Of a DNA stretch of 23,505 nucleotides, positions 1 to 10,471 are shown one piece after another. Source of the DNA: a virus. The translations under genes and the position numbers were made by a program. The DNA lies in the IMG/VR virus record IMGVR_UViG_3300013094_002669, positions 1 through 23,505 of that record. One strand, written 5' to 3'. The stretch's first letter is position 1; every line of letters starts with the position of its first letter. The notes under the pieces are model-generated. The model had not been told where the DNA came from, made no database searches, and saw only the letters and a program-made list of their open reading frames with translations.

Positions 1-120
1 ATCTTTTGTTTGTTTGTATAAACCTATTGCAAACGCGATTAGCGGACCAATGCCAAATATAATGTAAAACAAAATTGGCAAATAATCACCATATCCTGTT
101 GTTCTAAGCCATTCTTCCAT
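1..120 (-). CDS. Small membrane protein, cut by the window edge
   Basis: The reading frame starts with ATG at 120 and runs off the left edge after 40 residues, so its C-terminus is unknown. Residues 14-33 form one strongly hydrophobic segment (PILFYIIFGIGPLIAFAIGL), followed by a lysine-containing stretch, which suggests a single-pass inner-membrane protein. A good ribosome binding site, GGAGGT, lies 9 bases upstream. The start overlaps the TGA of the preceding gene by one base (TGATG), the tight coupling seen along this whole operon. No family is recognised. A holin-like or other small phage membrane protein is possible, but nothing here decides that. Confidence 0.6.
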   Translation of the reverse strand, partial: MEEWLRTTGYGDYLPILFYIIFGIGPLIAFAIGLYKQTKD

Positions 121-239
121 CACCACTGCACCTCCCCGTTAATAACGACCTGCACATACCACCTGTCGCCGTTGTCGCTCTCCCACAGCGCAGATATGTT
201 GTCGCCGTCCCGCTCATGGCGGACTATCCATTGTCTCAT
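120..239 (-). CDS. 39-residue hypothetical protein
   Basis: This very short gene begins MRQWIVRHERDG and ends GEVQW. It is polar, rich in W, D and E, and has no membrane segment. It is supported by context more than by similarity. Its ATG overlaps the stop of the upstream gene as ATGA, its stop overlaps the downstream start as TGATG, and GGAG stands 8 bases before the ATG inside the end of the upstream gene. It therefore fills the gap between two neighbours exactly, without spare bases. The product is not recognised; the tryptophans and the alternating pattern near the C-terminus would suit a small beta-rich protein. Confidence 0.55.
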   Translation of the reverse strand: MRQWIVRHERDGDNISALWESDNGDRWYVQVVINGEVQW

Positions 240-490
240 TTTGGCGGCTCCATAAACATATGCTGATATTCTTCTGGCATTGGAAAATAATCCATTTGTA
301 TTTTTTTTAACCCCGGCAACAAAAGTTCTTGAATTTGGGAAAGATTAATTTTGCTTCCTGTTGGAATAATAACTTTTGTTGGCTCCGCCTCAATAAACGA
401 ACAAACGGGCATAATGTCCGCTATACGGATAACAGTTGGAGCAGCCACAAATGAAACCAATCCCTGAAGGATTCCACGACGTGTTATCAT
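236..490 (-). CDS. 84-residue protein with a twin-arginine-like N-terminus
   Basis: The protein starts MITRRGILQG and continues with a hydrophobic stretch containing VSFVAAPTVIRIADIMPV. The T-R-R-x-I-L pattern followed by a hydrophobic core resembles a Tat export signal, and small phage proteins with this kind of N-terminus occur in proteobacterial phages. After the APTVIR segment there is no obvious AxA cleavage site, so it may be a membrane anchor rather than a cleaved signal. The rest is soluble and lacks a recognised domain. Start and stop both overlap their neighbours by four bases (ATGA). The last codons (E-P-P-K) carry the GGAG that serves the next gene. The function is unknown; the Tat reading is inference. 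Confidence 0.65.
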   Translation of the reverse strand: MITRRGILQGLVSFVAAPTVIRIADIMPVCSFIEAEPTKVIIPTGSKINLSQIQELLLPGLKKIQMDYFPMPEEYQHMFMEPPK

Positions 491-645
491 TTCGTTATCC
501 TCTTAATAACCCAATGCGCCACCTGAGATACACCATCAGGCAAATCATTTACCCATTCCCAATCAGGCATACTGGCGGTCTTGTAACGTGACCACACCAA
601 ATAAGTTGTTGTGATAGACTGCATACCGCCAAGGAAGTGGATCAT
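487..645 (-). CDS. 52-residue DUF551-like C-terminal fragment protein
   Basis: An in-frame ATG exists at 690, but the start at 645 is preferred. It overlaps the upstream stop as ATGA and has GGAG 8 bases upstream, the same geometry as the other junctions in this operon. The protein reads YLVWSRYK, then W-x-W, then VAHWVI. This parallels the second half of the 109-residue neighbour at 989-1318 (YLVKWGKW, then VTHWMPIP), so it looks like a shortened member of the same DUF551-like group. It lacks the N-terminal W-x-P-I-x-x-A-P motif. DUF551 proteins are small phage and prophage proteins of unknown role. Confidence 0.6.
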   Translation of the reverse strand: MIHFLGGMQSITTTYLVWSRYKTASMPDWEWVNDLPDGVSQVAHWVIKRITK

Positions 646-992
646 TTTGGCGGCTCCGGCAATTCCATCCAATGAGACGGGCAGATACAACGTTCCGGCC
701 CATCACCCTCAACACGGTGAGGTGCATAAACAAACATCGGCCTGTCGCCATATGTGTAGTGCATTTCACTATGATACACCGCCACCGCAATCCGTTGACC
801 AAACTCCGCCTGATCACCTTTTTCCTTATTGCCGTACACCAAAATCGGGCGGTCCTTCGGCGCTGTGTCTATTGGTTGCCAACGATATTTTTCATTTACT
901 TTGCGAAGCCTCACCAACTCCTGCAAAGTCGTTTGATCCGCATGGCGGTCAGTTGGGGCATATGGCCCCAACCATCCTTTCTTGTTTGTCAT
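642..992 (-). CDS. DUF551-like phage protein (116 residues)
   Basis: Residues 38-51 read WQPIDTAPKDRPIL and the C-terminus reads HWMELPEPPK. This pairing of W-x-P-I-x-x-A-P-K-D near the start and H-W-M-x-L-P-E-P-P at the end is the hallmark of the DUF551 family, whose function is unknown. An N-terminal extension of about 35 charged residues precedes the domain and may be helical. The start overlaps the upstream gene as ATGA with GGAG 8 bases before it. The last four codons, E-P-P-K, contain the GGAG used by the next gene. It sits in a run of three related genes, so it probably arose with them by duplication. Confidence 0.8.
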   Translation of the reverse strand: MTNKKGWLGPYAPTDRHADQTTLQELVRLRKVNEKYRWQPIDTAPKDRPILVYGNKEKGDQAEFGQRIAVAVYHSEMHYTYGDRPMFVYAPHRVEGDGPERCICPSHWMELPEPPK

Positions 993-1318
993 AGCTTAAA
1001 CTCCGGTATTGGCATCCAATGCGTCACCTTTATTTTTGACCCTTTGGAATTACAAATCCACGCATCTTTCTTGTCCCATTTACCCCATTTGACGAGATAG
1101 AAATGTTTTCGTTTTTCATTATACCCCAATACCACCGTGCCATTTTTTGGCGCGACTTCAATAGGATGCCATTCAAACCTTTCCATCAGCCGCTGAAGTT
1201 CAACATGATGTTTACCTTTGGCGTAATCTTCCAACGCAACCATCATTTCTTCGGCGGTTTTACACTCGTCGCTATTTAATTTGATTACTAACCCATTGCT
1301 TAAAATGATTTCCTTCAT
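989..1318 (-). CDS. DUF551-like phage protein (109 residues)
   Basis: This is the second full-length DUF551-like protein. It has an N-terminal helical part (residues 1-50), then FEWHPIEVAPKNGTVVL, and ends VTHWMPIPEFKL. The W-x-P-I-x-x-A-P-K and T-H-W-M-P-I-P motifs are clear. It shares this plan with the adjacent gene at 642-992 but little sequence outside the motifs, so the two diverged long ago or were acquired separately. Start and stop both overlap neighbours by four bases (ATGA). No enzyme motif or membrane segment is seen. Its role in phage growth is unknown. Confidence 0.8.
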   Translation of the reverse strand: MKEIILSNGLVIKLNSDECKTAEEMMVALEDYAKGKHHVELQRLMERFEWHPIEVAPKNGTVVLGYNEKRKHFYLVKWGKWDKKDAWICNSKGSKIKVTHWMPIPEFKL

Positions 1319-1608
1319 GCAGGTAACCCAAGTGCTGTGCTTAAATCAGCCGTTACCTGAGGCATGCTTGGTGATGCATTAGAAGCCGCCAGATTGGCTG
1401 CTTCTGCAATGTCTACCCAATGATCCCTGAACCCCGCATCACCCGACAGGATACGCGCCAACTTAACAGCGATAGCATCCAAGGCCTCTTTCTGCATATC
1501 GTTGATCTTATTCCAGTTATTACCCGTCCGGAAATCATCTTTCAGGGTCTGTGCAAAGTTCGCTGTGGTCTTGAACTGGCCGTCTGTCTTTTCGTTATGT
1601 ACGCTCAT
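1315..1608 (-). CDS. 97-residue phage protein (possibly DUF6378-like)
   Basis: The centre reads KEALDAIAVKLARILSGDAG followed by DHWVDIAEAANLAA. This combination of a helix with A-x-K-x-x-R-I-x-S-G and then H-W-x-D-I-A is typical of small phage proteins annotated as hypothetical, and it recalls the end of DUF6378 proteins; that link is tentative. The ATG at 1608 has a strong AAGGAG 7 bases upstream and does not overlap the preceding gene. The gene is thus the first of an ATGA-coupled block running left to 120. No function can be assigned. Confidence 0.7.
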   Translation of the reverse strand: MSVHNEKTDGQFKTTANFAQTLKDDFRTGNNWNKINDMQKEALDAIAVKLARILSGDAGFRDHWVDIAEAANLAASNASPSMPQVTADLSTALGLPA

Positions 1609-1619
1609 TTTTTCTCTCC

Positions 1620-1952
1620 TTAAAAGTTGTCAAAAAAGTCATATGTGTTGTCTAAGTTACGAAAAACTCTCCAAAGCATTTTCGCTTCTTTCTTAGAAAG
1701 TTTTATACATTTCTTCGTAGAACCATGCGTTTGAATAATTTTGACTGGTTCCATATCATCTTCATCCGCTTCAATACGAACTACATGTTCTTCGCCGACA
1801 CCACCCCCCGGAGTGGTGTGTTCAAATACCATTTTAAAGTTACCATCCATTTTCTTTTTCCCCGTTGTTTCACTTAGCCTGTCCAACAAAGACGGGCCGC
1901 TATACAGACTATCCTCTAATATTTCTCGTACCGCCGATAAATTTATCGCCAT
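1620..1952 (-). CDS. 110-residue hypothetical protein
   Basis: The protein starts MAINLSAVREILEDS. It has a glycine-rich turn in the middle (TTPGGGVGEEH), an acidic patch EADEDDME, and a basic helix KLSKKEAKMLWRVFRNL near the C-terminus. The acidic-then-basic layout suggests a small soluble protein that binds a partner or nucleic acid, but no family is recognised. It lies 3 bases after the nested replication gene and 11 bases before the next gene. Its ribosome binding site is poor: the best candidate, GGGAG, is about 18 bases upstream, so translation may depend on coupling to the gene before it. Confidence 0.65.
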   Translation of the reverse strand: MAINLSAVREILEDSLYSGPSLLDRLSETTGKKKMDGNFKMVFEHTTPGGGVGEEHVVRIEADEDDMEPVKIIQTHGSTKKCIKLSKKEAKMLWRVFRNLDNTYDFFDNF

Positions 1953-1955
1953 GTT

Positions 1956-2240
1956 TCACACAAAGTTCTTGCTCCCACGCCGACTAAGTCTTGTTGCCTC
2001 ACCCACCAAGTCGGCTATCGTCGGTGGGAATTTCGCCTTTGCCAAGATGCCCGTCGATGGGTCTGACAACTTCCGCAATACGTCTGGAGGAAACTTTTCC
2101 AGTGCCTCCGCTGCGCTTCGTAAAAATAACTGGGGGTTCGCTATGTGCGTCAGGCTGTAACACTGCATGATTTTCGTTACCGCCGCCTCCGGTGTAATCT
2201 TCCCCAAGTTCTTCTGCCCACTGGGCCTTTCTCCGCTCAC
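1956..2240 (-). CDS. Small replication-module protein, nested out of frame (GTG start)
   Basis: The reading frame is open from an ATG at 2273, but the best start is GTG at 2240, which has GGAGG exactly 6 bases upstream; the ATG has no such site. The 94-residue product reads KITPEAAVTKIMQCYSL and later DPSTGILAKAKFPPTIADLV. The D-P-x-x-G-I and K-F-x-P-T-I-x-[DE]-L-V pattern is familiar from small proteins encoded beside phage replication initiators, the position held by a lambda P-type loader, though no homology to P is claimed. It overlaps the 3' end of the initiator gene by 242 bases in another frame. The family-like sequence is in this frame, so the initiator frame is probably the weaker one over the overlap. 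Confidence 0.65.
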   Translation of the reverse strand: MSGERPSGQKNLGKITPEAAVTKIMQCYSLTHIANPQLFLRSAAEALEKFPPDVLRKLSDPSTGILAKAKFPPTIADLVGEATRLSRRGSKNFV

Positions 2241-2913
2241 TTGCTGCCTCCAGTTCTGCAAACGCATCCGCAATCTGCTTGTTTTTGACTACCTTTTCCT
2301 TCTTCTTTTTGCCGCCAAGGGCAGCGGACAGATACGGGATTGGATCACGCACTCCGTTTGCCACGGCAGTTTCAAGAACCCTGAGTATTTCCGCCTGATC
2401 GCCATTGGCAAGCTTCAGGCATCTCCCCACAAAAGTGCGGGACGTAACATCTGCCACGCCCATCCCCATGAGCATTCCCACCGCCTCGTCCCAAAAAGTC
2501 TTATTGTTGCTTTCTGGCGGCTCTTCGTGATTCGCAAATATGGAAAGTACTGGATCGTCCAATTCCGTAGGAATTGTATGTTTATTTATTCCTAGTTCAT
2601 GTCCGGACAGATTGTCCCTAGGTGTAGGGACAGATTGTCCCTTGGTCATAAGTAGGCTGTAAGTATTGGATGTCTTACGTCCGGCGGTTCCTATGCGACT
2701 TTCGTATGAGATCAAACCTGCCAGAGCCAGTTCTTGTACGGAACGCGTAATAGTCCTTTCGTCGCAGCAGCACTTCTCAGCCAAGGAGGCGCGGGACGGA
2801 AAGCACAAATCTGTTTCGTGGTTGTGAAAGTCAGCAAGGAATATCAAGACCAATTTGGCGGTCGATGAAATACCTGTTTGCTGGAAAGCCCAACATGTAG
2901 CCAAATGAGACAT
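1999..2913 (-). CDS. Replication initiator with N-terminal helix-turn-helix
   Basis: Residues 16-88 form a winged-helix domain of the HTH_36 type (SSTAKLVLIFLADFHNH, then FPSRASLAEKC and DERTITRSVQELALAGLI), which should bind origin DNA. A linker (about 89-138) is followed by a domain FWDEAVGMLMGMGV, then TFVGRCLKLANGD, and ending near DPIPYLSAALGGKKKK (about 200-206). This is the usual plan of phage initiators resembling lambda O. ATG at 2913 is chosen over an ATG at 2934 because AGAGG lies about 10 bases upstream. Residues after about 245 are low-complexity and overlap a better-conserved gene in another frame. They may be a fast-evolving tail, or the sign of a frameshift. The linker DNA holds candidate iterons. 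Confidence 0.8.
   Translation of the reverse strand: MSHLATCWAFQQTGISSTAKLVLIFLADFHNHETDLCFPSRASLAEKCCCDERTITRSVQELALAGLISYESRIGTAGRKTSNTYSLLMTKGQSVPTPRDNLSGHELGINKHTIPTELDDPVLSIFANHEEPPESNNKTFWDEAVGMLMGMGVADVTSRTFVGRCLKLANGDQAEILRVLETAVANGVRDPIPYLSAALGGKKKKEKVVKNKQIADAFAELEAASERRKAQWAEELGEDYTGGGGNENHAVLQPDAHSEPPVIFTKRSGGTGKVSSRRIAEVVRPIDGHLGKGEIPTDDSRLGG
2560..2642. other. Candidate replication origin inside the initiator gene
   Basis: TGTCC/GGACA half-sites occur five times between 2600 and 2640. A 15-base element, GGACAGATTGTCCCT, is repeated exactly at 2605-2619 and 2628-2642, 23 bases apart; each copy is an inverted repeat around GAT. TGTCCGGACA at 2600-2609 is a perfect palindrome. Leftward lie an AT-rich stretch (about 2577-2599) and the perfect palindrome CAATTCCGTAGGAATTG at 2560-2576. 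Iterons, AT-rich segment and palindrome in this order along the initiator's direction match the layout of lambda ori in gene O. The segment encodes the linker of the initiator. Function as an origin is inferred from structure and position. Confidence 0.55.
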
Positions 2914-2928
2914 AACGCATACAACCTC

Positions 2929-2957
2929 TTGCAACGCAGAGGTCGATGACGTAAAAG
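2929..2957 (+). promoter_or_regulatory. Possible sigma70-type promoter for a small antisense RNA
   Basis: TTGCAA at 2929-2934 and TAAAAG at 2952-2957 are 17 bases apart, each matching the consensus at four of six positions. Transcription would start near 2964 and run rightward, against the surrounding genes. The call depends mainly on the terminator downstream. Confidence 0.3.
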
Positions 2958-2963
2958 AGCGTC

Positions 2964-3058
2964 AGTCGGGAACTCTGCAACCCAGTTCTCAGATTAGGGG
3001 CGGCAACCCCGAACCTTATTCAACGGCTCCGGAATCACTCCGGGGCCGTTTTCTTCTT
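2964..3058 (+). ncRNA. Candidate OOP-like small antisense RNA
   Basis: No gene fills 2914-3034. On the plus strand this stretch holds successive stem-loops: GGGAACT (2968-2974) with AGTTCTC (2984-2990), one wobble, and GGGG (2997-3000) with CCCC (3007-3010). A strong intrinsic terminator at 3022-3058 follows. A promoter-like sequence lies at 2929-2957. The resulting RNA of about 95 nt would be antisense to the last codons of the DUF1064 gene and would begin just upstream of the initiator gene. Lambda OOP RNA has the same placement: between cII and O, reading away from O, ending in the 3' part of cII. The transcript itself is inferred. Confidence 0.4.
3022..3058 (+). terminator. Intrinsic terminator on the plus strand
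   Basis: AACGGCTCCGG (3022-3032) pairs with CCGGGGCCGTT (3040-3050) over 11 base pairs including one U-G wobble, with a 7-base loop, and is followed by a T-rich run to 3058. The wobble becomes an A-C mismatch and the T-run is lost when read on the minus strand, so the element works in the plus direction. It overlaps the 3' end of the minus-strand DUF1064 gene. No protein gene on the plus strand precedes it, which argues for a small RNA. Confidence 0.65.
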
Positions 3059-3436
3059 AGGGCCGGGCCACTTCTTAGTCAAGCGTTTTGGCTTCCAACC
3101 CATTATAAAAACAGTAATCTCTATCCCGTGGTACAATTCGGCGGCCTTTTTACGCAACCGATACGCAGGGTCTTTCATCGTACCCGTAGATTTAACCTCT
3201 TCAATGATCACCTTGCCCGTTTCAGCCTCCGTGTAAATAAAATCCGGAGTGTACGTGCAATAGTGCTTCCCATTGATCTGAACCGGATATTCCGGCTGCA
3301 AAACCAAATCCTTAACGAACCCTGCCTTTTCCGCCAATTTCAACTGAGCGTACCGTGCAGCTTCCCGTTTGGAATCAAAGATGATCCCGTCAATGGTTCG
3401 TTCAATCTGCGGTACTACTTTGTATTTCACTGGCAT
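3035..3436 (-). CDS. DUF1064 family nuclease-like protein
   Basis: The 133-residue protein shows the DUF1064 pattern: DGIIFDSKREAARYAQL near residues 16-32, LQPEYPVQING, then YTPDFIY (62-68) and VIIEEVKST (76-84). D65 and E80-V-K82 form the D...ExK signature of PD-(D/E)XK nucleases, with E25 as a likely extra acidic residue. DUF1064 proteins are common in phage replication/recombination regions and are thought to be nucleases, possibly junction- or end-processing; activity is inferred. The ATG at 3436 is chosen over one at 3463 because AAGGAT lies 8 bases upstream. The gene overlaps the regulator before it by 35 bases, and its 3' end overlaps a plus-strand terminator. Confidence 0.8.
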   Translation of the reverse strand: MPVKYKVVPQIERTIDGIIFDSKREAARYAQLKLAEKAGFVKDLVLQPEYPVQINGKHYCTYTPDFIYTEAETGKVIIEEVKSTGTMKDPAYRLRKKAAELYHGIEITVFIMGWKPKRLTKKWPGPKKKTAPE

Positions 3437-3665
3437 TAGGTGCATCCTTCGGGAAAAAGTCATCCTTGGTCAAAATGATACCGCGCTGCTTGGCGGCAAC
3501 CATCAATTCTATCTGGCGGCGGGACGGTATCAGTCCACCCGTCCCGCCTTTGTCCATAGGCCACATCCACTTGTATACCGCTTGCGTGGACATAACGAGC
3601 ATCCCCGCCACTGCTCGTGGCCCTCCCAATTTCGTTATTACGCGCTTTGCAATTAAATGCGTCAT
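3402..3665 (-). CDS. Cro/CI-like helix-turn-helix regulator
   Basis: The 87-residue protein reads AKRVITKLGGPRAVAGMLVM then STQAVYKWMWP. The L-G-G-P-x-A-V-A...V...[AV]-x-x-W pattern at residues 13-36 is a compact helix-turn-helix of the type found in small phage Cro/YdaS-like repressors, and the I-P-S-R-R-x-x-x-x-x-x-A segment after it is also usual. The ATG at 3665 is preferred over one at 3722 because it has AGAGGT about 5 bases upstream and lies downstream of a clear promoter. It is the first gene of the leftward operon and diverges from the GcrA-like gene. Inverted TAGTTGACA boxes over its promoter are good candidates for its own operators. Confidence 0.75.
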   Translation of the reverse strand: MTHLIAKRVITKLGGPRAVAGMLVMSTQAVYKWMWPMDKGGTGGLIPSRRQIELMVAAKQRGIILTKDDFFPKDAPNASEIQSSTAD

Positions 3666-3685
3666 GCTTACCTCTGTTAAACCGA

Positions 3686-3725
3686 TAGTTGACAACATAG
3701 TTGCGAATATGCATGCTGTCAACTA
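3686..3725. promoter_or_regulatory. Divergent operator region
   Basis: TAGTTGACA at 3686-3694 and its exact reverse complement TGTCAACTA at 3717-3725 are 31 bases apart, about three helical turns, so bound dimers would face the same side. Further AGTTG/CAACT half-sites at 3699-3703 and 3727-3731 extend the symmetry. The right arm contains the -35 box of the leftward promoter. TAGTTGACA recurs at 4730-4738. Binding by the adjacent regulator is inferred. Confidence 0.6.
3694..3722 (-). promoter_or_regulatory. Leftward early promoter
   Basis: On the minus strand TTGACA (3722-3717) is a perfect -35 box, followed after 17 bases by TATGTT (3699-3694), four of six matches to the -10 consensus. It would drive the regulator, nuclease, replication and accessory genes to the left. 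A matching rightward promoter is less clear: TTGACA at 3689-3694 has only CATGCT at the right distance, so the GcrA-like gene may use a weaker or activated promoter. Confidence 0.7.
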
Positions 3726-3748
3726 CCAACTGAAGGGGGAATTTAAAA

Positions 3749-4267
3749 ATGGAATATTCTTTTGCTGTGCGTAAATGGACGTGGGAAGAAATTAAGATAG
3801 TAAAGAAATTGGCGGAGAAGGGATTAGCCGCAAGGCAAATTGCTCAACAATTTCCGGGACGTAGCAGAAATTCTGTGATTGGCCTATGCGCCCGACAAAA
3901 TATTGTTTTGATGGCAAAAAGAAAGGATGCCGGAAAAACACCGCCTAATTTTAAATCGCCAAATAAATCGCCGCACAAGACGCGTGTCGCCGCGATTAAA
4001 AAAATAATTGCGGAAAAGAAAATAGAGGTTGACCAACAAGTAAACTTTTTTGATACTGTTGAAGAAGGATTCGAACCCAAGAATAAAACGCTGCTGCAAT
4101 TAGGCAGTTACGAATGCAAAGCGATTATGGGTCCGGTCAAAGGATTAGAAACGAAGTATTGCGCCCACAAAACGGTTGAAGGGGAATCGTGGTGTGACCA
4201 TCACTTCAAATTATACACAGTACCAAGCCATCCAAGGAGACGGGATTATGAGTCAAAGCGAGCGTGA
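3749..4267 (+). CDS. GcrA-like cell-cycle regulator
   Basis: Residues 10-55 read WTWEEIKIVKKLAEKGLAARQ and RNSVIGLCARQNIVL, matching the N-terminal DNA-binding helix-turn-helix of GcrA (W-T-x-E...L...G.S...IA..L....RNAVIGK). A basic linker follows (56-95). The C-terminal part has ECKAIMG, then YCAHK and WCDHHFKLY, with cysteines 123, 138 and 149 as in the sigma-interacting end of GcrA. In Alphaproteobacteria GcrA activates sigma70 promoters at methylated GANTC sites. A phage copy divergent from the repressor could tune phage early promoters or redirect the host programme; that is inference. The putative ribosome site AGGGGG lies about 10 bases upstream. Its end overlaps the next gene by 20 bases. 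Confidence 0.8.
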   Translation: MEYSFAVRKWTWEEIKIVKKLAEKGLAARQIAQQFPGRSRNSVIGLCARQNIVLMAKRKDAGKTPPNFKSPNKSPHKTRVAAIKKIIAEKKIEVDQQVNFFDTVEEGFEPKNKTLLQLGSYECKAIMGPVKGLETKYCAHKTVEGESWCDHHFKLYTVPSHPRRRDYESKRA

Positions 4268-4724
4268 ATGGTCCGTATTTTCCAGACGGTTTGCAGGATC
4301 ACGCCCCGCTATCTTCAGGGTGGCGGAATACATTCACCGTGAAATAAAACTGACTGTGACGATCCCACGGATGGTATTAGCCAATAGTGTTGCCCAGTCT
4401 ATGGATTACAGGGATGAGGGCGATATTATCGCTCGTACCGAAAAAGGGACTGAGTTCATTATTGAAGTGAAGCACATGCAAAAGGATTTCACTTCGGCAG
4501 ATGACTTTGGTTGGCCTGACATTTTGGTGGCGGGTAAGACGCAAGCAGACCGCCTGAAACCGTTCGCTTATTTTTGTGTGAATAGAAACATGACCCATGC
4601 GTTCATGGTGAAATACAGCACAAGAGATCGATGGATTATTAAAGAAATCCCAGACAAAGAAAGGGGAGATAAGGAAGAAAAATACGCCGCGCCAATAGGA
4701 ATAGGAGAATTCGTCAAACTATAA
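4248..4724 (+). CDS. PD-(D/E)XK nuclease-like hypothetical protein
   Basis: The 158-residue product begins MSQSEREWSVFSRRF. ATG at 4248 is chosen over an in-frame start at 4176 because AAGGAG stands 8 bases upstream. Residues D59 and E73-V-K75 (in GDIIARTEKGTEFIIEVKH) fit the catalytic D...ExK signature of the PD-(D/E)XK fold, with an N-terminal helix before it. The later part contains WPDILVAGKTQADRL and a beta-rich region. No exact family is recognised; position between the GcrA-like gene and the exonuclease suits a role in DNA processing. It could also be an inactive relative, since only the core motif supports the nuclease call. Confidence 0.6.
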   Translation: MSQSEREWSVFSRRFAGSRPAIFRVAEYIHREIKLTVTIPRMVLANSVAQSMDYRDEGDIIARTEKGTEFIIEVKHMQKDFTSADDFGWPDILVAGKTQADRLKPFAYFCVNRNMTHAFMVKYSTRDRWIIKEIPDKERGDKEEKYAAPIGIGEFVKL

Positions 4725-4729
4725 TTCAG

Positions 4730-4761
4730 TAGTTGACAGATATGAGAAGTAGTGAAATAAC
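4730..4761 (+). promoter_or_regulatory. Promoter and operator box before the recombination genes
   Basis: TAGTTGACA at 4730-4738 repeats the box of the divergent control region. It contains TTGACA (4733-4738), followed after 17 bases by AATAAC (4756-4761), four of six matches to a -10 box. It lies in a 60-base gap before the exonuclease gene. A repressor that binds the box would cover this -35 element, linking these genes to the regulator at 3402-3665. Confidence 0.6.
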
Positions 4762-4784
4762 CAAATTCTACAACGGGGGTTGCA

Positions 4785-5567
4785 ATGACACTTACAGCAG
4801 AACAGAAAGCGTTCCGCGCCACACTTTTGGGCGGATCAGACGCAAACACGATCATGGGCGGCGATAACGAACGCCTCCTGAAACTATGGAAAGTAAAGTC
4901 CGGCCAAGAGGAAGACGTTGATCTTAACGACGTTCTCCCTGTCCAGATGGGCGTGTTTACTGAACCATTTAATATCCAATGGTTTGAAAAGCAGACAGGA
5001 CGAAAGGTTACCGACAATGGCACACAGCGGTCTTCTGCTGTTCATTCTTTTATGGGTTGTACTCTTGATGGATTGACCGATGGCGGCGAAACCGTATTTG
5101 AAGCCAAGCACGTCTCAGCCTTCTCCAAAGAGGATGAAATACTGGATAGGTACTACCCACAACTGACCCACAATATGTTGGTCTGTGGGGTCAAGAAGGC
5201 CGTCTTGTCGGTGTTCTTCGGCAACCATAAATATGAGAAGTTTGAAGTTTCTCTGGACGATCTTTACGCCGACATTTTGGTGGGCGCAGAGGCCAAGTTC
5301 TGGGATTGTGTCAAGAATGGTACGCCGCCCGTAACAGTCCATGTCAGATCGCCTATTGACGCCGTCCGTAAGGTCGATTTCACAGGCAACAACACATGGG
5401 CCAATTTGGCGGCACAGTTGAAGTTAAACTCCATTGGCAAGAAACTATACGACGAAGCCGCCAGTGGCTTGAAGGCTATGGTGGAGGAAGATGTAATTGA
5501 AGCCAGTGGTTATGGGATTAGTTTTAAACGTGACAAGCGCGGTGCGCTTCGTATGAAGGGGGAATAA
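4785..5567 (+). CDS. YqaJ-family viral recombinase / exonuclease
   Basis: This 260-residue protein has the motifs of YqaJ-type alkaline exonucleases, which resect double-stranded ends for single-strand annealing. They are LLGGSDANTIMG (14-25), the acidic residue E60 in GVFTEP, D95 in TLDG, the catalytic E106-A-K108 in VFEAKH, and YYPQLTHNM (123-131) with the conserved Q126. Its length is usual for phage members of this family. It is paired with an ERF annealing protein one base downstream of its stop, the expected two-component recombination system. A G-rich ribosome site (GGGGG) precedes the ATG, and a promoter with an operator-like box lies immediately upstream. Confidence 0.88.
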   Translation: MTLTAEQKAFRATLLGGSDANTIMGGDNERLLKLWKVKSGQEEDVDLNDVLPVQMGVFTEPFNIQWFEKQTGRKVTDNGTQRSSAVHSFMGCTLDGLTDGGETVFEAKHVSAFSKEDEILDRYYPQLTHNMLVCGVKKAVLSVFFGNHKYEKFEVSLDDLYADILVGAEAKFWDCVKNGTPPVTVHVRSPIDAVRKVDFTGNNTWANLAAQLKLNSIGKKLYDEAASGLKAMVEEDVIEASGYGISFKRDKRGALRMKGE

Positions 5568-5568
5568 A

Positions 5569-6198
5569 ATGAAGACCAGTGAACAAATTGATGCCTTGTC
5601 AACAGCGTTGGTAAAGGCACAGGGCGCTTTGAAAAACCCGCCTAAGAACAAGATCAACCCGCATTTCAAATCAGCTTATGTGGATTTGTCTGACGGTTTG
5701 GATACCATCCGTGAGTGCTATTCCAAGCATGATCTATCCTTCATTCAAGGTACATCCGTGGTTGACGGCATAATCATTCTTAACACCCGCATTGTTCATA
5801 AGTCGGGCCAGTGGATTGAATCTGAATACCCTGTAGGCGGCTTTGGTAAGCCACAGGAAATGGGTTCAGCTATGACCTACGCCCGCCGCTACGCCCTGTT
5901 TGGCATGGTTGGTGTGGCAGGTGAGGATGATGATGACGGCAACGCTGCACAGGCTGCGGAAACCAAGCCTGTAAAGTCTACAAAGGCTCCTGCCAAGCAG
6001 ATGGAACCCGGCATGAAGCCTGACGACAGTGAGAAGTTCTTGGGCATCTCCATCAGCGCAATGGAAATGTGTTTAAATGATATTGACTTGACCAAGTGGG
6101 CAATCGAAAACAAAGAGTCAATCGGCATGATGATTCCTGCCCATCGCTCTGCGTTGCAGGAGGCTTACAAGGCCAAGAAGGCAGAACTGAGCCAATGA
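5569..6198 (+). CDS. erf: ERF-family single-strand annealing protein
   Basis: The N-terminal 125 residues match ERF: EQIDALSTALVKAQGAL at the start, NPHFKSAYVDLSDGLDTIR in the first third, VGGFGKPQEMGSAMTYARRY, then ALFGMVGVAGEDDDDGN. The last segment, with S-A-x-T-Y-A-R-R-Y and the acidic DDDDG end, is diagnostic. ERF proteins anneal complementary strands and act with an exonuclease; here the exonuclease gene ends just before it. A lysine/proline-rich linker (about 130-155) leads to a helical C-terminal tail that probably contacts partners. Length (209) is normal. Phages of the P22 type use Erf to circularise their genomes after infection, a plausible role here. Confidence 0.88.
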   Translation: MKTSEQIDALSTALVKAQGALKNPPKNKINPHFKSAYVDLSDGLDTIRECYSKHDLSFIQGTSVVDGIIILNTRIVHKSGQWIESEYPVGGFGKPQEMGSAMTYARRYALFGMVGVAGEDDDDGNAAQAAETKPVKSTKAPAKQMEPGMKPDDSEKFLGISISAMEMCLNDIDLTKWAIENKESIGMMIPAHRSALQEAYKAKKAELSQ

Positions 6199-6199
6199 T

Positions 6200-6679
6200 A
6201 TGCCAGAGGTCATCTATGTCCGTAAGAGGGGCAACAAGCTTGAACCTTGCGCCTTAGTAGATGAGGAAGCGTTAGAACAGTTCCCAGAAGGGAAAGACTT
6301 ATCGGTAACTGTTTCACGTATCCGCAGCACCAAACAGCACAGATTTTTTTGGGCGTTCCTGAACAAGATTTGTGAAAACCACGATACCTATCAACGGGCG
6401 GAGCAACTGCTTCTATGGTTAAAAATCCGCCTTGGGTATGTGGAGCAGGTGCATTTCCATGACGAGCAAGTTTGGTGGACGCCTCAGTCCATCAGCTTTA
6501 ACGCAATGGGACAAGAAGAGTTCCGGAAATTCTTTAACGCCGCATTAGATGTTATCGTGGCAGAAGTGATTCCGGGATTGAATACAGAAGAATTAATCGT
6601 TGAAGTTGAAAAAATGTTGGGCTTCCGCCTGACTGATTTATGGAGTGAGAAATATGGCATGGGAAAGCAAGCACGGTGA
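6200..6679 (+). CDS. DUF1367/NinB-like recombination-region protein
   Basis: The sequence reads VTVSRIRSTKQHRFFWAFLN around residues 37-56, then LLLWLKIRLGYVEQVHF, SISFNAMGQEEFRKFF and a helical end. The R-S-x-x-Q-x-R-F-x-W-A motif, a central G-Y-V and the S-I-S-F-x-x-M...E-F pattern are what one sees in DUF1367 and NinB-type proteins found beside phage recombination genes. These are thought to aid recombination mediated by annealing proteins, but the biochemical role of this subgroup is not settled. It starts one base after the ERF stop and its 3' end overlaps the next gene by 26 bases, so it is part of the same transcript. Confidence 0.7.
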   Translation: MPEVIYVRKRGNKLEPCALVDEEALEQFPEGKDLSVTVSRIRSTKQHRFFWAFLNKICENHDTYQRAEQLLLWLKIRLGYVEQVHFHDEQVWWTPQSISFNAMGQEEFRKFFNAALDVIVAEVIPGLNTEELIVEVEKMLGFRLTDLWSEKYGMGKQAR

Positions 6680-6962
6680 TATTTCACTGTTTCCAAACGA
6701 CAAGAAGACCAAAGATAACCAGCCTGATTGGCGGGGTAAAATCACCCTTGACGGCAAAGATTACGACATAGCCCTATGGAATAAAACGTCCGCCAGAAGC
6801 GGCACATCGTTTCTGTCAGGCCGTATGGGTGAAGAGTCCAAGCCAAAGACAGCCCCTGCGTGGGTGCAGCGTAAGCCCAACAATGCTGTTGATGAGGCTT
6901 ATGGAACGCCTGAAAAGAAAACGTCTGTTAAAGAAGCGTTGGATTCAGATTTGCCGTGGTAA
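6654..6962 (+). CDS. Single-stranded DNA-binding-like protein with acidic tip
   Basis: ATG at 6654 is chosen over a GTG at 6645 because GGAG lies 8 bases upstream. The 102-residue product has a beta-rich core (DWRGKITLDGKDYDIALWNK, then SGTSFLSGRMGE), a proline/lysine-rich disordered part, and the C-terminus EALDSDLPW. An acidic tail ending in a hydrophobic residue after proline resembles the partner-binding tip of bacterial SSB (D-D-D-I-P-F). Together with its place after ERF and the NinB-like gene, this suggests a small phage single-strand binding protein. No standard SSB signature is certain, so the call is by architecture and context. Confidence 0.55.
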   Translation: MAWESKHGDISLFPNDKKTKDNQPDWRGKITLDGKDYDIALWNKTSARSGTSFLSGRMGEESKPKTAPAWVQRKPNNAVDEAYGTPEKKTSVKEALDSDLPW

Positions 6963-6976
6963 TGGGATGTTGAACC

Positions 6977-7009
6977 CCTCTAATTAATGTGTTACGCATT
7001 AGTTAGAGG
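6977..7009 (+). promoter_or_regulatory. RNA hairpin covering the HNH ribosome binding site
   Basis: CCTCTAATTAATG (6977-6989) pairs with CATTAGTTAGAGG (6997-7009) along all 13 positions, one of them a U-G wobble, with a 7-base loop. The right arm ends in AGAGG, the Shine-Dalgarno sequence 5 bases before the ATG of the HNH gene at 7015. Folding would hide that site. No T-run follows, so it is not an intrinsic terminator. Confidence 0.65.
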
Positions 7010-7014
7010 TAAAC

Positions 7015-7455
7015 ATGAAACATCATATTCAAAATCTTTTTGAACAAGGCAAATCCCAAGCAGAAATTTGCAAAATAACGGGAAAACCACGTTCAACTGT
7101 ATCGCGTTGGATAAAAGAAAATGCCGTTTTTTCTAATTTTCAAAGAATGAAAAGGAGGAATAAGGCGGTTATTGATAAAATTCAATCAAGATATATTCCG
7201 GAGCCTAATTCTGGATGTTGGTTATGGTTGGGTCATATTAAAAAAAATGGATATGGGTCTTTAACAATTGGGAAAAAAAATTTCCATGCACATCGTTTAA
7301 GTTATCAAACGTATGTAGGGGAAATACCAAAGGATAAAGTCTTGGACCATAAATGTCGCGTTCGGTGTTGTTGCAACCCAAACCATTTGGAAATTGTAAC
7401 GCAAAAAGAAAATTTTCAAAGAGGCGTCCGATGGAAAAAAGAAGGAAAACTATAA
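7015..7455 (+). CDS. HNH homing endonuclease with N-terminal helix-turn-helix
   Basis: Residues 5-36 form a recombinase-like helix-turn-helix (LFEQGKSQAEICKITGKPRS, then TVSRWIKEN). Residues 67-131 are an HNH_3 domain: GCWLWLGHIKKNGYG, HAHRLSYQTYVGEIP, then LDHKCRVRCCCNPNHLE, with the H-R, D-H, C-x-x-x-C and N-P-x-H-L hallmarks all present. Free-standing endonucleases of this type cut DNA lacking the gene and spread by repair. The gene is visibly richer in A+T than the recombination genes before it, as expected for a mobile insert. Its ribosome site is buried in a hairpin. Its end overlaps a second HNH gene by 25 bases. Confidence 0.85.
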   Translation: MKHHIQNLFEQGKSQAEICKITGKPRSTVSRWIKENAVFSNFQRMKRRNKAVIDKIQSRYIPEPNSGCWLWLGHIKKNGYGSLTIGKKNFHAHRLSYQTYVGEIPKDKVLDHKCRVRCCCNPNHLEIVTQKENFQRGVRWKKEGKL

Positions 7456-7781
7456 GTGCCAAACAACGACTTAAAATTTTTACAGATCATCAAGGAAAAT
7501 GCCACATATGCAGTGGTAAAATTGGAATTGGAGAAGCTTGGCAAATTGAACATGTTATTCCTTTTGCGATGGGCGGGGCGGATGACGAGAGCAATTGGCG
7601 TCCATCGCATATCAAATGCCATCGAACAAAAACGACTGATGACGTGGGTAAAATTGCAAAGGCTAAGAGGCGCGAAGCACGTCACCTTGGAGTTAACGTA
7701 TCTCGGACGCCGCTACCTTTTGGTAAAAAATCCAAATTCAAACGCAAATTAGATGGAACTGTAGTTTTAAGGGAGAAGTAA
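7431..7781 (+). CDS. HNH endonuclease (McrA-type)
   Basis: ATG at 7431 is preferred because AGAGG lies about 6 bases upstream; an earlier in-frame start at 7353 would extend further into the preceding gene. The 116-residue protein has a zinc-binding C24-x-x-C27, IEHVIPFAMGGADDESN (39-55) with the general-base H41 and N55, and HIKCHRTKTTDD (60-71) with H60, C63-H64. These are complete catalytic HNH residues of the classical HNH domain. The C-terminus is strongly basic. It differs from the upstream HNH_3 protein, so the pair is not a tandem duplication. It could be a resident phage nuclease aiding replication or packaging, or a second homing enzyme. Confidence 0.85.
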   Translation: MEKRRKTISAKQRLKIFTDHQGKCHICSGKIGIGEAWQIEHVIPFAMGGADDESNWRPSHIKCHRTKTTDDVGKIAKAKRREARHLGVNVSRTPLPFGKKSKFKRKLDGTVVLREK

Positions 7782-7782
7782 A

Positions 7783-8109
7783 ATGGCATTTATTCTTACA
7801 GACGGCCCACCACCAGAGCCAACCGATAGCCCATTGGGCAACATCTTTGACCACGCTTTCCCACTGGCGGATCAGTTGTCAATGAACATCAATGAATCTG
7901 CCGCCAAGATGGCTGCGGAAAATCCGGAATTTAAAAATATGTCCGATGTTATCATCGTGCATAGCATCGCTCTCATGCTGATCATCTGCATGATGAACCG
8001 TGAAGTTCTGGACACCAGCGATCTTGATACCACGTTCAGGAAGGTCAAGGGCATCACCCAAGACTATATTAAGCACCTCCTGACCACCGGAAAGGATCAA
8101 GTCAATTGA
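7783..8109 (+). CDS. 108-residue hypothetical protein
   Basis: The N-terminus is proline-rich (TDGPPPEPTDSP). It is followed by helices and a hydrophobic helix near residues 54-72 (MSDVIIVHSIALMLIICMM) flanked by charged residues. That segment could be a membrane span or the buried core of a helical bundle; the methionine and cysteine content and absence of flanking positive charge leave this open. The ATG follows the upstream stop by one base and has AAGGGAGAAG before it. Its own stop overlaps the next start. No family is recognised. Confidence 0.65.
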   Translation: MAFILTDGPPPEPTDSPLGNIFDHAFPLADQLSMNINESAAKMAAENPEFKNMSDVIIVHSIALMLIICMMNREVLDTSDLDTTFRKVKGITQDYIKHLLTTGKDQVN

Positions 8110-8378
8110 TCATCCAGTTGAACCCAACCTTGCCATTGCTGACTCCCAAGGGGCCAGCTTTGGCGCACTTCCTCATAGATTACGGGGAGGAGCATCACCT
8201 GATGTGGGTATGCATTCAGGACAACAGCGGGGAGATTTGGACATGGCCCAATACCCAAATCAGATCACAATCCAACCCAACAATGGGAAGGCCAAGGATT
8301 CCAAACGTATCTTATGGGACAGTCAATGACACAGGAATTAACACCGATCCAAAAGGTGATCTGGACCGTCAATGCTAA
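8106..8378 (+). CDS. 90-residue conserved phage protein (TTG start)
   Basis: The start is TTG at 8106, overlapping the upstream TGA (TTGA), with AAGGAT 8 bases before it; no ATG fits better. The body reads NPTLPLLTPKGPALAHFLID, then YGEEHHLMWVCIQDNSGEIW and TMGR. The pattern of P-L-x-T-P-K-G-x-A-x-A-H-F-x-I-D-Y-G followed by H-x-L-x-W-V and a T-W-x-N end is a recurring small protein in phages of Proteobacteria. Its function is unknown. About 30 residues after the usual M-G-R end look unstructured and overlap the next gene, so that tail may carry little constraint of its own. Confidence 0.7.
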   Translation: MIIQLNPTLPLLTPKGPALAHFLIDYGEEHHLMWVCIQDNSGEIWTWPNTQIRSQSNPTMGRPRIPNVSYGTVNDTGINTDPKGDLDRQC

Positions 8379-8637
8379 ACCGCGTGAGCAGGTATTTATG
8401 CTGCGGTTGATAGATGCATATGGCTTGTCCACCTTTACCGCCACGATTGATGAGATCGCCAAATTAACCGGAACGCCAAGGGGGACAACAGTGCGTTGTT
8501 TGACGGGTCTACGTGATTTGGGGTGGGTCAATAGCGAACGGATGTACAAGAAGACGGGAATTAACCTTCCGTCTGTGATGAGTTGCGAATACAGCATTGC
8601 AATAGAAAAAGAGCCAGTCACTGCCCCCACGGAGTGA
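8314..8637 (+). CDS. Winged-helix DNA-binding protein
   Basis: The centre reads REQVFMLRLIDAYGLSTFTA, then TIDEIAKLTGTPRGTTVRCL and TGLRDLGWVNSER. This is a helix-turn-helix followed by a wing, of the type in MarR- or replication-associated regulators, with the recognition helix at GTTVRCLTGLRDLG. No ligand-binding domain is present; at 107 residues it is just the DNA-binding module. Either ATG at 8314 or ATG at 8326 could be used; neither has a strong ribosome site, and the gene overlaps the end of its upstream neighbour by 65 bases, so translation may be coupled. As last gene of the rightward early operon it might act on late transcription; that is inference. Confidence 0.65.
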   Translation: MGQSMTQELTPIQKVIWTVNAKPREQVFMLRLIDAYGLSTFTATIDEIAKLTGTPRGTTVRCLTGLRDLGWVNSERMYKKTGINLPSVMSCEYSIAIEKEPVTAPTE

Positions 8638-8642
8638 CTGGC
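8601..8642 (-). terminator. Intrinsic terminator of the late operon
   Basis: GCCAGTCACT (8613-8622) and AGTGACTGGC (8633-8642) form a perfect 10-base stem with a 10-base loop. On the minus strand the stem is followed by TC and TTTTT (8610-8606), giving a standard intrinsic terminator just after the lysozyme gene. The hairpin lies at the 3' end of the convergent plus-strand gene, covering its last codons and its stop. Confidence 0.8.
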
Positions 8643-8654
8643 CCAAGTCAAGAA

Positions 8655-8682
8655 GGAACGGCCCTCCAAGTGGGCCGATTCC
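8655..8682. terminator. Second stem-loop between the convergent operons
   Basis: GGAACGGCCC (8655-8664) pairs with GGGCCG (8672-8677) and TTCC (8679-8682), with one bulged A and a 7-base loop. Read leftward it is followed by a moderately T-rich stretch (CTTCTTGACTT); read rightward it has none. It probably supports the stronger terminator beside it or protects the 3' end of late mRNA. Confidence 0.45.
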
Positions 8683-9200
8683 TAAGCTACCATACGAAAC
8701 GCAATAGTTTCAACCCTTGAAACCCGTGCGCCCCAACCTTTTCCAAAATTACTCCACGTAGGCAGTCCTTGAAGGAATGCTAACCTTGCTTCGCATACTT
8801 TTGTAGCAACTTCACGTATGTTTGCCTCTTCACAAGCAGATATCGTGGCGGGGCCGATTTGTCCGTCGACGGGAGTAACACCAAGTACCTGCTGCAAGGT
8901 TTTCGCTGCACGGGAAACACCGGAATTAACCGCCATATCGAATACAGCGTAGTCTACGCCATCCGGTAGGTCGTCTCCTCTGATTTTATCCCAATATTGG
9001 GAGTGGTAAAGGGGTGCAACGTCTTGAATCGTAAGATTCTGCATATCCTCTTCGGTAACTTCTTTACCGATAAACACTTCCCATACTGCCTGAGTAACGC
9101 CGTGGTTTGTACGACCGCCGGGATCGTGAGGGTTGTTAACGTACCCTCCTTCTTCTTTCAGAATCAAAGCAAGGCATTGTTCAAAGTTCTCAGCAGCCAT
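8682..9200 (-). CDS. GH108 endolysin (lysozyme) with peptidoglycan-binding end
   Basis: The N-terminus has LKEEGGYVNNPHDPGGRTNH and GVT, the active-site block of glycoside hydrolase family 108. The catalytic glutamate is E17 within EGGY, and D-P-G-G-x-T-N-x-G-V-T follows as expected. The middle (WDKIRGDDLPDGVDYAVFDM) is also typical. The C-terminal part, VLGVTPVDGQIGPATISA, matches the PG_binding_3 segment. No signal peptide is seen, so release should need the holin one base upstream in the operon. It cleaves the glycan strands of the host wall at lysis. It is the last gene of the late operon and is followed by a terminator. Confidence 0.9.
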   Translation of the reverse strand: MAAENFEQCLALILKEEGGYVNNPHDPGGRTNHGVTQAVWEVFIGKEVTEEDMQNLTIQDVAPLYHSQYWDKIRGDDLPDGVDYAVFDMAVNSGVSRAAKTLQQVLGVTPVDGQIGPATISACEEANIREVATKVCEARLAFLQGLPTWSNFGKGWGARVSRVETIAFRMVA

Positions 9201-9201
9201 T

Positions 9202-9726
9202 TTATTTCCCCAAAGAAGCAGTTAAAGCATCCGTCTTTTGCTTGGACCCGGCAGACGAACCAAAATAAAATCCCATGACACTGGTCCAAGCGGTTCCAAG
9301 AGTACCAATAAGCATCAAGAGAGCCTCACCACCCGTGGCGGGTAGACCGAAGTGAAGAATGTACGCAATGATGCCAAAGAAGCCCAGCGTGACGCCAACC
9401 GCCAATACACGGGGAATCCAATCCCGCGTTGCAATTTGCATTTGACGAGCCGAATCACGGTCTTCTTCCGATATCTTTTCCAGATCAATGTCCAAAGATT
9501 TCATTTGGATTTTAAAATCGGCGTCAATCTTTTTAAGCTGCGCCAACTGGTCGCCAGTAGGATTGGCAAGAGCCGACATGATATCGTCTTCAGTGCCATT
9601 CTCATGGCCGAAGAGGGCATTTGATACAGCTTTAACCGCCATGCCCGCAATAGGTCCGCCCAGAGCGGTAGCGATGGTAGGAGCAACAGACCCGATCAAC
9701 GGGCCAAAAGTTTTAAGGATGTCCAT
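9202..9726 (-). CDS. Holin of the three-TM (GTA-type) family
   Basis: The 174-residue protein has a glycine/alanine-rich N-terminal segment (PLIGSVAPTIATALGGPIAG) of modest hydrophobicity, and a charged helical middle (residues 50-98). Two clear membrane spans follow near the C-terminus, around RVLAVGVTLGFFGIIAYILH and ALLMLIGTLGTAWTSVMGFY. The tail FGSSAGSKQKTDAL is a recurring end for GTA_holin_3TM proteins. Holins assemble in the inner membrane and open it to the endolysin, whose gene follows one base later. The start overlaps the upstream stop by one base (TAATG). The arrangement holin then lysozyme makes the call strong even though the first span is weak. Confidence 0.8.
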   Translation of the reverse strand: MDILKTFGPLIGSVAPTIATALGGPIAGMAVKAVSNALFGHENGTEDDIMSALANPTGDQLAQLKKIDADFKIQMKSLDIDLEKISEEDRDSARQMQIATRDWIPRVLAVGVTLGFFGIIAYILHFGLPATGGEALLMLIGTLGTAWTSVMGFYFGSSAGSKQKTDALTASLGK

Positions 9727-10007
9727 TATTTACCTTCCGTGATTTTTTCCAGAATACGAACACGAACCGAAATATCGTTAATTTCTTTGGTTAATTCATC
9801 CCGCAATTTATACCGTGCATCAGCCGAAATAGGACTATCTGTAGGAACACCTTGCGCCGTTATCAGCATAGGCATCTTACTTTCAAGGTCTTGTACCTTA
9901 GTGTTAAGTGTTGTTATTTGTGACAACAACCATCCAATGGCCGCCACCAAAATTGGGAAAGCCATATTGATAATTTTCCCAAAATCAAAATGATTTTCGT
10001 CCATCAC
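9726..10007 (-). CDS. Small membrane-anchored coiled-coil protein of the lysis region
   Basis: One N-terminal membrane span (IINMAFPILVAAIGWLLSQI, about residues 12-31) is followed by a coiled-coil stretch (TTLNTKVQDLESK). After a short loop comes a second charged helix (KLRDELTKEINDISVRVRIL). This single-span plus coiled-coil plan is what i-spanins and XhlA-like lysis accessory proteins look like, and the gene lies directly before the holin. No lipoprotein partner (o-spanin) is visible nested in or next to it, so the spanin role is unproven. It overlaps both neighbours: ATGA at its start and TAATG at its end. Confidence 0.6.
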   Translation of the reverse strand: MMDENHFDFGKIINMAFPILVAAIGWLLSQITTLNTKVQDLESKMPMLITAQGVPTDSPISADARYKLRDELTKEINDISVRVRILEKITEGK

Positions 10008-10471
10008 TTCACCGTTAACATTAAATAGATGCCAATAGCGGCTATACAGAGAACAAGAAAGCCAACAATACTACTAACCATGATTGCGTCCTTACGTGCC
10101 TCTTCACGTTCCGCTAACTCCGCTGCCGCCTGACGCGCTGCTTCTTTACGCATTTCAATCACCTGCCGTTGTATGCCTTCCCATGCGGCTTTCCCATATT
10201 GGGAAATAAACAAGTTCTTGACCTGAAGCTGCATGTCCAAAGCCTTTGCCTTGGCGGCATAAATCTTAACCGCTTCGGCTTCAAACTCCGACTGGGATTG
10301 AAACAATTTTTTTTTACGAGGCGTTGACGCAATCGTGACAATCTGACCGACTTTGCTGAAAAGGTTACTTACCTTTTCCGCAGTCTCCATCATGTCCTGT
10401 CCGGCATCTACGGCGGACTTGATGGAGTTATATATAGCGGTAGCGCCAGCGATAAGCGTAAACGGGTCCAT
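10004..10471 (-). CDS. Coiled-coil protein with a C-terminal membrane anchor
   Basis: The N-terminus (MDPFTLIAGATAIYNSIKSA) is mildly hydrophobic. A long helical region follows, with FQSQSEFEAEAVKIYAAKAK, LQVKNLFISQYGKAAWEGIQ and an EARKDA-rich coiled coil. Residues 131-153 form a clear membrane span (VSSIVGFLVLCIAAIGIYLM). Such tail-anchored helical proteins occur just after the internal virion protein genes in several podoviruses, but no named family is recognised. It could be a minor virion or lysis-accessory component. It is tightly coupled: TAATG with the giant gene before it and ATGA with the gene after it. Confidence 0.6.
   Translation of the reverse strand: MDPFTLIAGATAIYNSIKSAVDAGQDMMETAEKVSNLFSKVGQIVTIASTPRKKKLFQSQSEFEAEAVKIYAAKAKALDMQLQVKNLFISQYGKAAWEGIQRQVIEMRKEAARQAAAELAEREEARKDAIMVSSIVGFLVLCIAAIGIYLMLTVK

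Follow-up and report, generated by a model that had tools for sequence, protein, structure and literature searches.

A predicted, covarying antisense RNA and a putative Shine-Dalgarno switch ahead of the replication initiator in a family of metagenomic phages

Gene context of the intergenic region

What is encoded in the roughly 120 bases (2911-3037) that separate a replication initiator gene from the DUF1064 gene preceding it, both on the minus strand, in a linear virus record of 23.5 kb (the window)? The initiator gene (1999-2913, minus strand; start codon ATG at 2911-2913) is O-like, with matches to Pfam HTH_36 (1e-15) and to replication initiation proteins in PHROGs (4e-18), and is the proposed target of the regulation described below. 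The gene in front of it (3035-3463, minus strand; stop codon at 3035-3037) encodes a DUF1064 or Holliday junction resolvase-like protein (Pfam DUF1064, 1e-12; phrog_190, 6e-25), and a further gene of the same operon (3460-3729) has no family match in Pfam or PHROGs. The leftward operon holding the DUF1064 and initiator genes probably starts at the top-scoring sigma-70-like promoter on positions 1-12000, TTGACA and TATGTT separated by 17 bases at 3722-3694 on the minus strand, which agrees with the consensus at 10 of 12 positions.

It had originally been stated that all genes lie on the minus strand. This holds locally, from 236 to 3729, and fails beyond, where a plus-strand early operon (3749-8637) encodes GcrA, RecE-like, Erf, NinB and HNH proteins. 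A GcrA-like cell-cycle regulator (Pfam 1e-20), encoded at 3749-4267 and transcribed away from the leftward early operon, suggests that the host is an alphaproteobacterium. Elsewhere in the window, two small DUF551-like genes adjoin each other (642-992 and 989-1318), two HNH endonuclease genes overlap in different frames (7015-7455 and 7353-7781), and two consecutive ORFs (10471-14925 and 14931-19430) encode 1484 and 1499 aa, one product weakly matching a DNA ejection protein and the other being without a PHROGs match.

A predicted promoter and terminator on the plus strand

A candidate promoter for the antisense RNA is located at 2929-2957 on the plus strand, with the -35 element TTGCAA at 2929-2934, a spacer of 17 bases and the -10 element TAAAAG at 2952-2957. 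Taken alone, the site is weak, reaching 8 of 12 consensus positions and thus staying under the scan cut-off of 9, and promoter-like sites are not enriched in this region (18 compared to 18.4 in shuffled sequences). Despite this weak score the promoter is credible because it is conserved: TTGNNN and TANNNN spaced by 17 or 18 bases occur at the same position in nearly every relative, TTGTAA-17-TATATG being one example, and divergent relatives (TTGACG-18-TATAAA, TTGATC-17-TATAAT) come near the promoter consensus. For L050 and L053, out of 28 sequences, the automatic search chose another -35/-10 pair; both nevertheless have the conserved site, which was set by hand for the later analyses.

Transcription from this promoter would end at an intrinsic terminator with a U-run (3022-3058, plus strand), in which TTCTTCTT comes after a stem of 12 pairs (3022-3050). 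The stem ranked best among 28 terminator-like sites on positions 1-12000 (13.3 +/- 3.6 in shuffled sequences), and its T-run also encodes Lys-Lys-Lys at the 3' end of the DUF1064 gene. Across the family, G-U pairs in the terminator number 24 on the plus against 2 on the minus strand, which points to the plus strand. The strong plus-strand terminator and the promoter with a 17-base spacer, both part of the original prediction, are upheld, the latter with the qualification that relatives use a spacing of either 17 or 18.

Distribution of the RNA among relatives

Relatives were collected from IMG/VR by DNA patterns and by tblastn searches, for which the initiator and the DUF1064 protein served as queries. 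A covariance model built on eight of them (R1) recovered 18 distinct sequences at E <1e-20, including some otherwise found only via other routes. More divergent loci followed with E values between 1e-13 and 2e-6. About 25 distinct relatives, falling into 14 groups of less than 80% identity, keep the promoter and a three-hairpin RNA. The second model, made of the plus RNA alone (R2), detected the window, L110, L130 and L122 and gave a borderline match at the right place in L126 (E 1.5), while L101, L111 and L129 look related by eye, were missed by the models and constitute weak evidence. R2 found no match in 14 DUF1064 loci with another following gene, in lambda, in the P9 plasmid stretch or in four cultured phages. 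Since the RNA is present where an initiator follows DUF1064 and was not found at these 14 loci, it appears to be tied to the initiator; concordantly, the gene after the RNA has an initiator-like N-terminus wherever this was tested.

DNA searches of annotated phages and plasmids returned no relative, and sequenced genomes yielded no cellular or prophage copy by protein or pattern; all members of the family seen here are thus virus contigs from metagenomes. A phage-plasmid lifestyle was considered and not retained, integrase and ParA not being found in 18 virus records, all of which are possibly fragments.

Structure of the predicted antisense RNA

The predicted RNA (2964-3058, plus strand), captured by models R1 and R2, comprises 92-95 nt depending on whether it ends at 3055 or 3058, of which about 71 nt lie opposite the intergenic leader and 21-24 nt opposite the last DUF1064 codons. 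Its fold beats dinucleotide shuffles with a z-score of -3.9 (-4.3 in a separate run). Hairpin H1 (2964-2995, plus strand; stem 2964-2974/2984-2995 with a bulged A2991 and the loop at 2975-2983) starts exactly at the predicted first base of the RNA, and hairpin H2 (2997-3010, plus strand) is closed by GGGG/CCCC in the window and by GGCC/GGCC or GGGA/TCCC in relatives. The succession of H1, H2, a linker and the terminator is the fold of most of the 14 representatives from the predicted start, with the exception of L111, which folds otherwise, and L101, which lacks the terminator. In the window itself the minimum-energy fold is an alternative one; H1 is not the lowest structure there, yet it is able to form.

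Compensatory change supports these hairpins. Within 24 sequences, 92.3% of the cells in H1, H2 and the terminator are paired, compared to 79.0% in shuffles, which ignore the relatedness of the sequences, and to at most 62% in slid controls, which retain it; the covariation score of 0.421 exceeds that of shuffles (0.194) and was reached in 0 of 500 of them, and 66 cells are changed on both sides versus 20 in the control. For H2 alone, 99% of the cells are paired and two pairs change on both sides. For H1, a swap test gave p about 1e-5 on the plus strand (13/13 representatives) and p 0.013 on the minus strand, so that the plus-strand hairpin pairs better and more specifically than the complementary one. 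Judged from these patterns, the plus-strand RNA is very probably real. It agrees with the antisense RNA of about 95 nt that had been predicted to run from upstream of the initiator into the 3' end of the preceding gene, and the stems, on whose conservation in relatives that prediction had made itself depend, prove to be conserved and covarying.

Mutually exclusive pairings in the initiator mRNA leader

The initiator mRNA leader itself can adopt alternative pairings on the minus strand. Hairpin P0 (2918-2948; stem 2918-2929/2938-2948), whose duplex amounts to -15.7 kcal/mol in the window, joins the segment right before the start codon to the spacer of the antisense promoter and holds the Shine-Dalgarno sequence AAGAGG (2925-2930). 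In P1 (2936-2978), the 5' arm of P0 is paired to the loop of the antisense-target hairpin, GCAGAG (2936-2941) with CTCTGC (2973-2978). As both use 2938-2941, P0 and P1 are mutually exclusive. An inner hairpin, I (2947-2964, TGACG/CGTCA), stacks with P1 to give one long imperfect hairpin, as seen in the lowest-energy structures of several leaders. The RNA starts downstream of all of P0 and of part of P1, so that these pairings are usable only in the initiator mRNA or in a longer plus transcript. An RNA starting upstream of 2936, whose first hairpin would comprise P1 and I, was considered and rejected because divergent relatives keep the promoter and H1 begins at the start that this promoter predicts.

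In swap tests with 14 representatives of less than 80% identity, the permutations of which leave some relatedness in place, the two arms of P0 fit each other when they come from one phage but not when they are combined across phages (p about 1e-5), and the same within-phage match was obtained for P1 with the inner hairpin excluded (p at most 6e-5). These 14 included L101, L111 and L126, which the models miss or score as borderline; members supported by the models show the same pattern, and within-phage matching of P0 and P1 was also seen over 26 sequences. The arms of P1 occur as GCGG/CCGC, GCAG/CTGC, GCGAA/TTCGC, GCAGAG/CTCTGC and GGAGA/TCTCC. For hairpin I the swap test gave p about 1e-5. 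Wobble pairs show no strand preference in P0 and P1 (10:15 and 13:15) and lean towards the plus strand in I (25:6), largely through one clade.

P0 and I might alternatively be DNA sites rather than RNA hairpins, inverted repeats around the -35 and -10 elements that serve as operators for a protein repressing the antisense promoter. The repeats do border the promoter elements, and the small gene at 3460-3729 in the same operon could encode a DNA-binding protein. However, the spacing of the arms varies widely, the arms differ among phages with their complementarity kept, and P1 links segments far apart, for which an operator would have no use; we consider this reading highly improbable. It is also very unlikely that the RNA is a small RNA of the phage that acts in trans or binds a protein, perhaps directed at host messages, and is located here by chance. 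Its sequence as well as its structure is conserved in parts (the H2 loop, AGTCC/GGATT) and weakly resembles the Bradyrhizobiaceae sRNA BjrC68, but its position before an initiator is constant, and the loop of H1 is linked to the mRNA of this locus, since it co-varies with the P0 arm of the leader through P1.

Predicted accessibility of the ribosome-binding site did not show the switch clearly, the effect being small. Under a folding model confined to nested structures at equilibrium, accessibility of the Shine-Dalgarno sequence was 0.34 in the free and 0.29 in the antisense-blocked state (p 0.10), the whole initiation region of the representatives reached p 0.01, and the Shine-Dalgarno sequence of the window was closed in both states. 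In the main subfamily it is situated in the loop of P0, not in the stem. Transcription termination at P0 is less likely, since in most relatives no U-run follows it. A leader peptide was likewise tried and dropped: no ORF is conserved in the leaders of the relatives, and that of the window contains none. In L007 an ORF of 30 codons spans the leader as far as the Shine-Dalgarno sequence of the initiator, where it ends; the other relatives do not conserve it.

A putative antisense-controlled switch

The best explanation of this arrangement, and one that we consider probable, is an antisense-controlled Shine-Dalgarno switch acting on translation of the initiator. A constitutive RNA of about 95 nt, transcribed against the early operon from a promoter within the initiator leader and ending in the 3' end of the DUF1064 gene, would base-pair with the initiator's mRNA leader. 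In one fold of this leader the antisense-target hairpin H1' would form and the Shine-Dalgarno sequence would be held in P0, whereas in the other the loop of H1' would pair to the 5' arm of P0, either within one long hairpin that includes I or by forming a pseudoknot, precluding P0 and leaving the Shine-Dalgarno sequence free. Binding of the antisense RNA would take up the target loop, and with it half of P1, so that P0 would close and less initiator would be translated. With the amount of RNA tracking template number, replication would be damped as phage copies build up. The default state could be off, P1 forming transiently or with help.

The sequence and its conservation show the promoter, the terminator, the three-hairpin RNA and the pairings P0, P1 and I, of which P0 and P1 exclude each other. 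From these we infer that the RNA is produced, that it lowers translation and that it has a role in copy number, while the direction of the switch is suggested by the anatomy of the leader.

Comparison with lambda OOP

OOP RNA is the textbook phage case of such an antisense RNA; its main action is on cII, and what it does in replication has been obscure for a long time. Like OOP (pO-tO), the RNA of the window lies between O and the gene before it, is directed against the early operon, is short and has its intrinsic terminator in the preceding gene. The order of a small upstream gene, a nuclease-like gene, the antisense RNA and an O-like initiator is that of lambda as well, so that gene order and orientation bear out the lambda-like position noted originally. 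Membership in the OOP family, if this was meant by the label OOP-like, is unsupported, as R1 found nothing at the oop locus (one weak match elsewhere in lambda, E 0.027), and the likely target differs; R2 had no match in L135. Lambda OOP overlaps mostly cII and regulates this gene (PMC3985674), whereas about three quarters of the RNA in the window are opposite a long initiator leader with a switch of its own. No cII homologue was found at this place, the preceding gene being DUF1064.

An action of the OOP type would consist in pairing of the RNA with the DUF1064 3' end and the intergenic region, followed by RNase III cutting the joint message, which would lower DUF1064 or uncouple the initiator. 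OOP works on cII via RNase III (PMC3985674), the genomic position and orientation are those of OOP, and in relatives too the RNA terminates inside the 3' end of the DUF1064 gene. However, just 21-24 of the approximately 95 nt face DUF1064, P0 and P1 are left unexplained, and the RNA tracks the downstream initiator and not DUF1064 as such. We therefore regard this as an unlikely account of the locus, although such an action could be additional. In another scenario the promoter would matter and not the RNA, convergent transcription restricting how much transcription of the leftward early operon runs on into the initiator and the origin. A conserved promoter does face the operon, the leftward promoter at 3722-3694 scores 10 of 12, and lambda pO lowers pR-driven transcription (PMC3985674), but the covarying hairpins H1, H2, P0, P1 and I would have no explanation, and we judge interference decidedly unlikely as the principal function. 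Beside the Shine-Dalgarno switch, cleavage of the joint message or colliding transcription, as at lambda pO, may contribute a second effect.

Comparison with plasmid antisense systems

Plasmids classically control their replication initiators by antisense RNA. In pSK41, pT181 and pIP501 such an RNA alters the fold of the rep leader, as is proposed for the window. The closest parallel to the proposed function would be plasmid copy control by the repABC ctRNA or the IncI-type RNAI rather than OOP. The repABC ctRNA (RepE, inc-alpha; Rfam RF00489, ctRNA_p42d) belongs to the Alphaproteobacteria, which is likely the same host group, given that the phage encodes GcrA, and its gene also lies in the intergenic region before the initiator. 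In repABC, a large stem-loop is reported to free the Shine-Dalgarno sequence of repC in the absence of ctRNA, and binding of the ctRNA to change this structure (PMC3155836); alternative folds at the initiator's Shine-Dalgarno sequence are shared, here as judged by sequence and covariation. In contrast, the RNA of the window is about twice as long as the 46 positions of the RF00489 model and has three hairpins; this model gave no match in one search and, in another, sub-threshold matches resembling a terminator alone (12.7 bits on the terminator, with a cut-off of 50). Moreover, repABC has RepC, while the window has a phage O-like initiator (RepC model E 0.0075, far below the cut-off), and neither upstream repA-repB (ParA/ParB) nor a RepC initiator was seen, ParA not being found in records that are fragments.

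The IncI-type pseudoknot provides a precedent for loop capture (PMC8383071; PMC10724649). RNAI and the repZ/repA pseudoknot of the IncI complex (ColIb-P9, IncB/O, IncK) share with the window an antisense hairpin with a loop matching a loop of the mRNA, which in turn pairs close to the ribosome-binding site of the initiator; in the window family, covariation of P1 indicates this second pairing. The systems differ in that IncI plasmids couple a translated leader peptide to the initiator, while the window family is without a conserved leader ORF, and in that RNAI has one hairpin compared to three here. The covariance model had no match in bases 1-4000 of the P9 plasmid record. By sequence, the RNA is not a member of the repABC ctRNA, IncI RNAI or OOP families.

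In Rfam, no family exceeded its threshold; BjrC68 reached 23.0 bits against a gathering threshold of 39 and sX14 23.7 against 80. The likeness to BjrC68 is weak and recurrent, covering H2 and the terminator (2982-3058 in the window, and in L013 and L011), with E 5.6e-4 in a 271-base search and E 0.008 and 0.06 in relatives, and may reflect a mere shared hairpin-terminator shape. Antisense control of initiators is already known from plasmids, and an RNA at this position from lambda; the literature searched, with subscription papers largely outside it, contained no phage with such a switch in the initiator leader. If the proposed mechanism is true, lambda-like phages would possess a direct brake on replication, linking phage and plasmid replication control, and a conserved antisense RNA on the initiator's own leader would be a new RNA family for Rfam.

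Possible exchange of initiators behind the cassette

The gene downstream of the RNA varies widely in length and sequence, while the cassette and DUF1064 remain; exchange of initiators apparently takes place at the start codon and spares the RNA cassette. It is possible, and we propose this more tentatively than the switch itself, that a whole phage family uses copy control in the manner of plasmids, an antisense RNA switching a leader that sequesters the Shine-Dalgarno sequence, in a cassette that is kept as the initiator is swapped. In Paracoccus phage Shpa, whose genes follow one another in the same order, a gap of 5 bases separates DUF1064 from the next gene, and there is no cassette. As noticed at L053, L058, L063, L101 and L012, some relatives have an initiator-like gene that is short (about 95-112 aa) immediately after the RNA, followed by a full-length initiator, and others have a single one.
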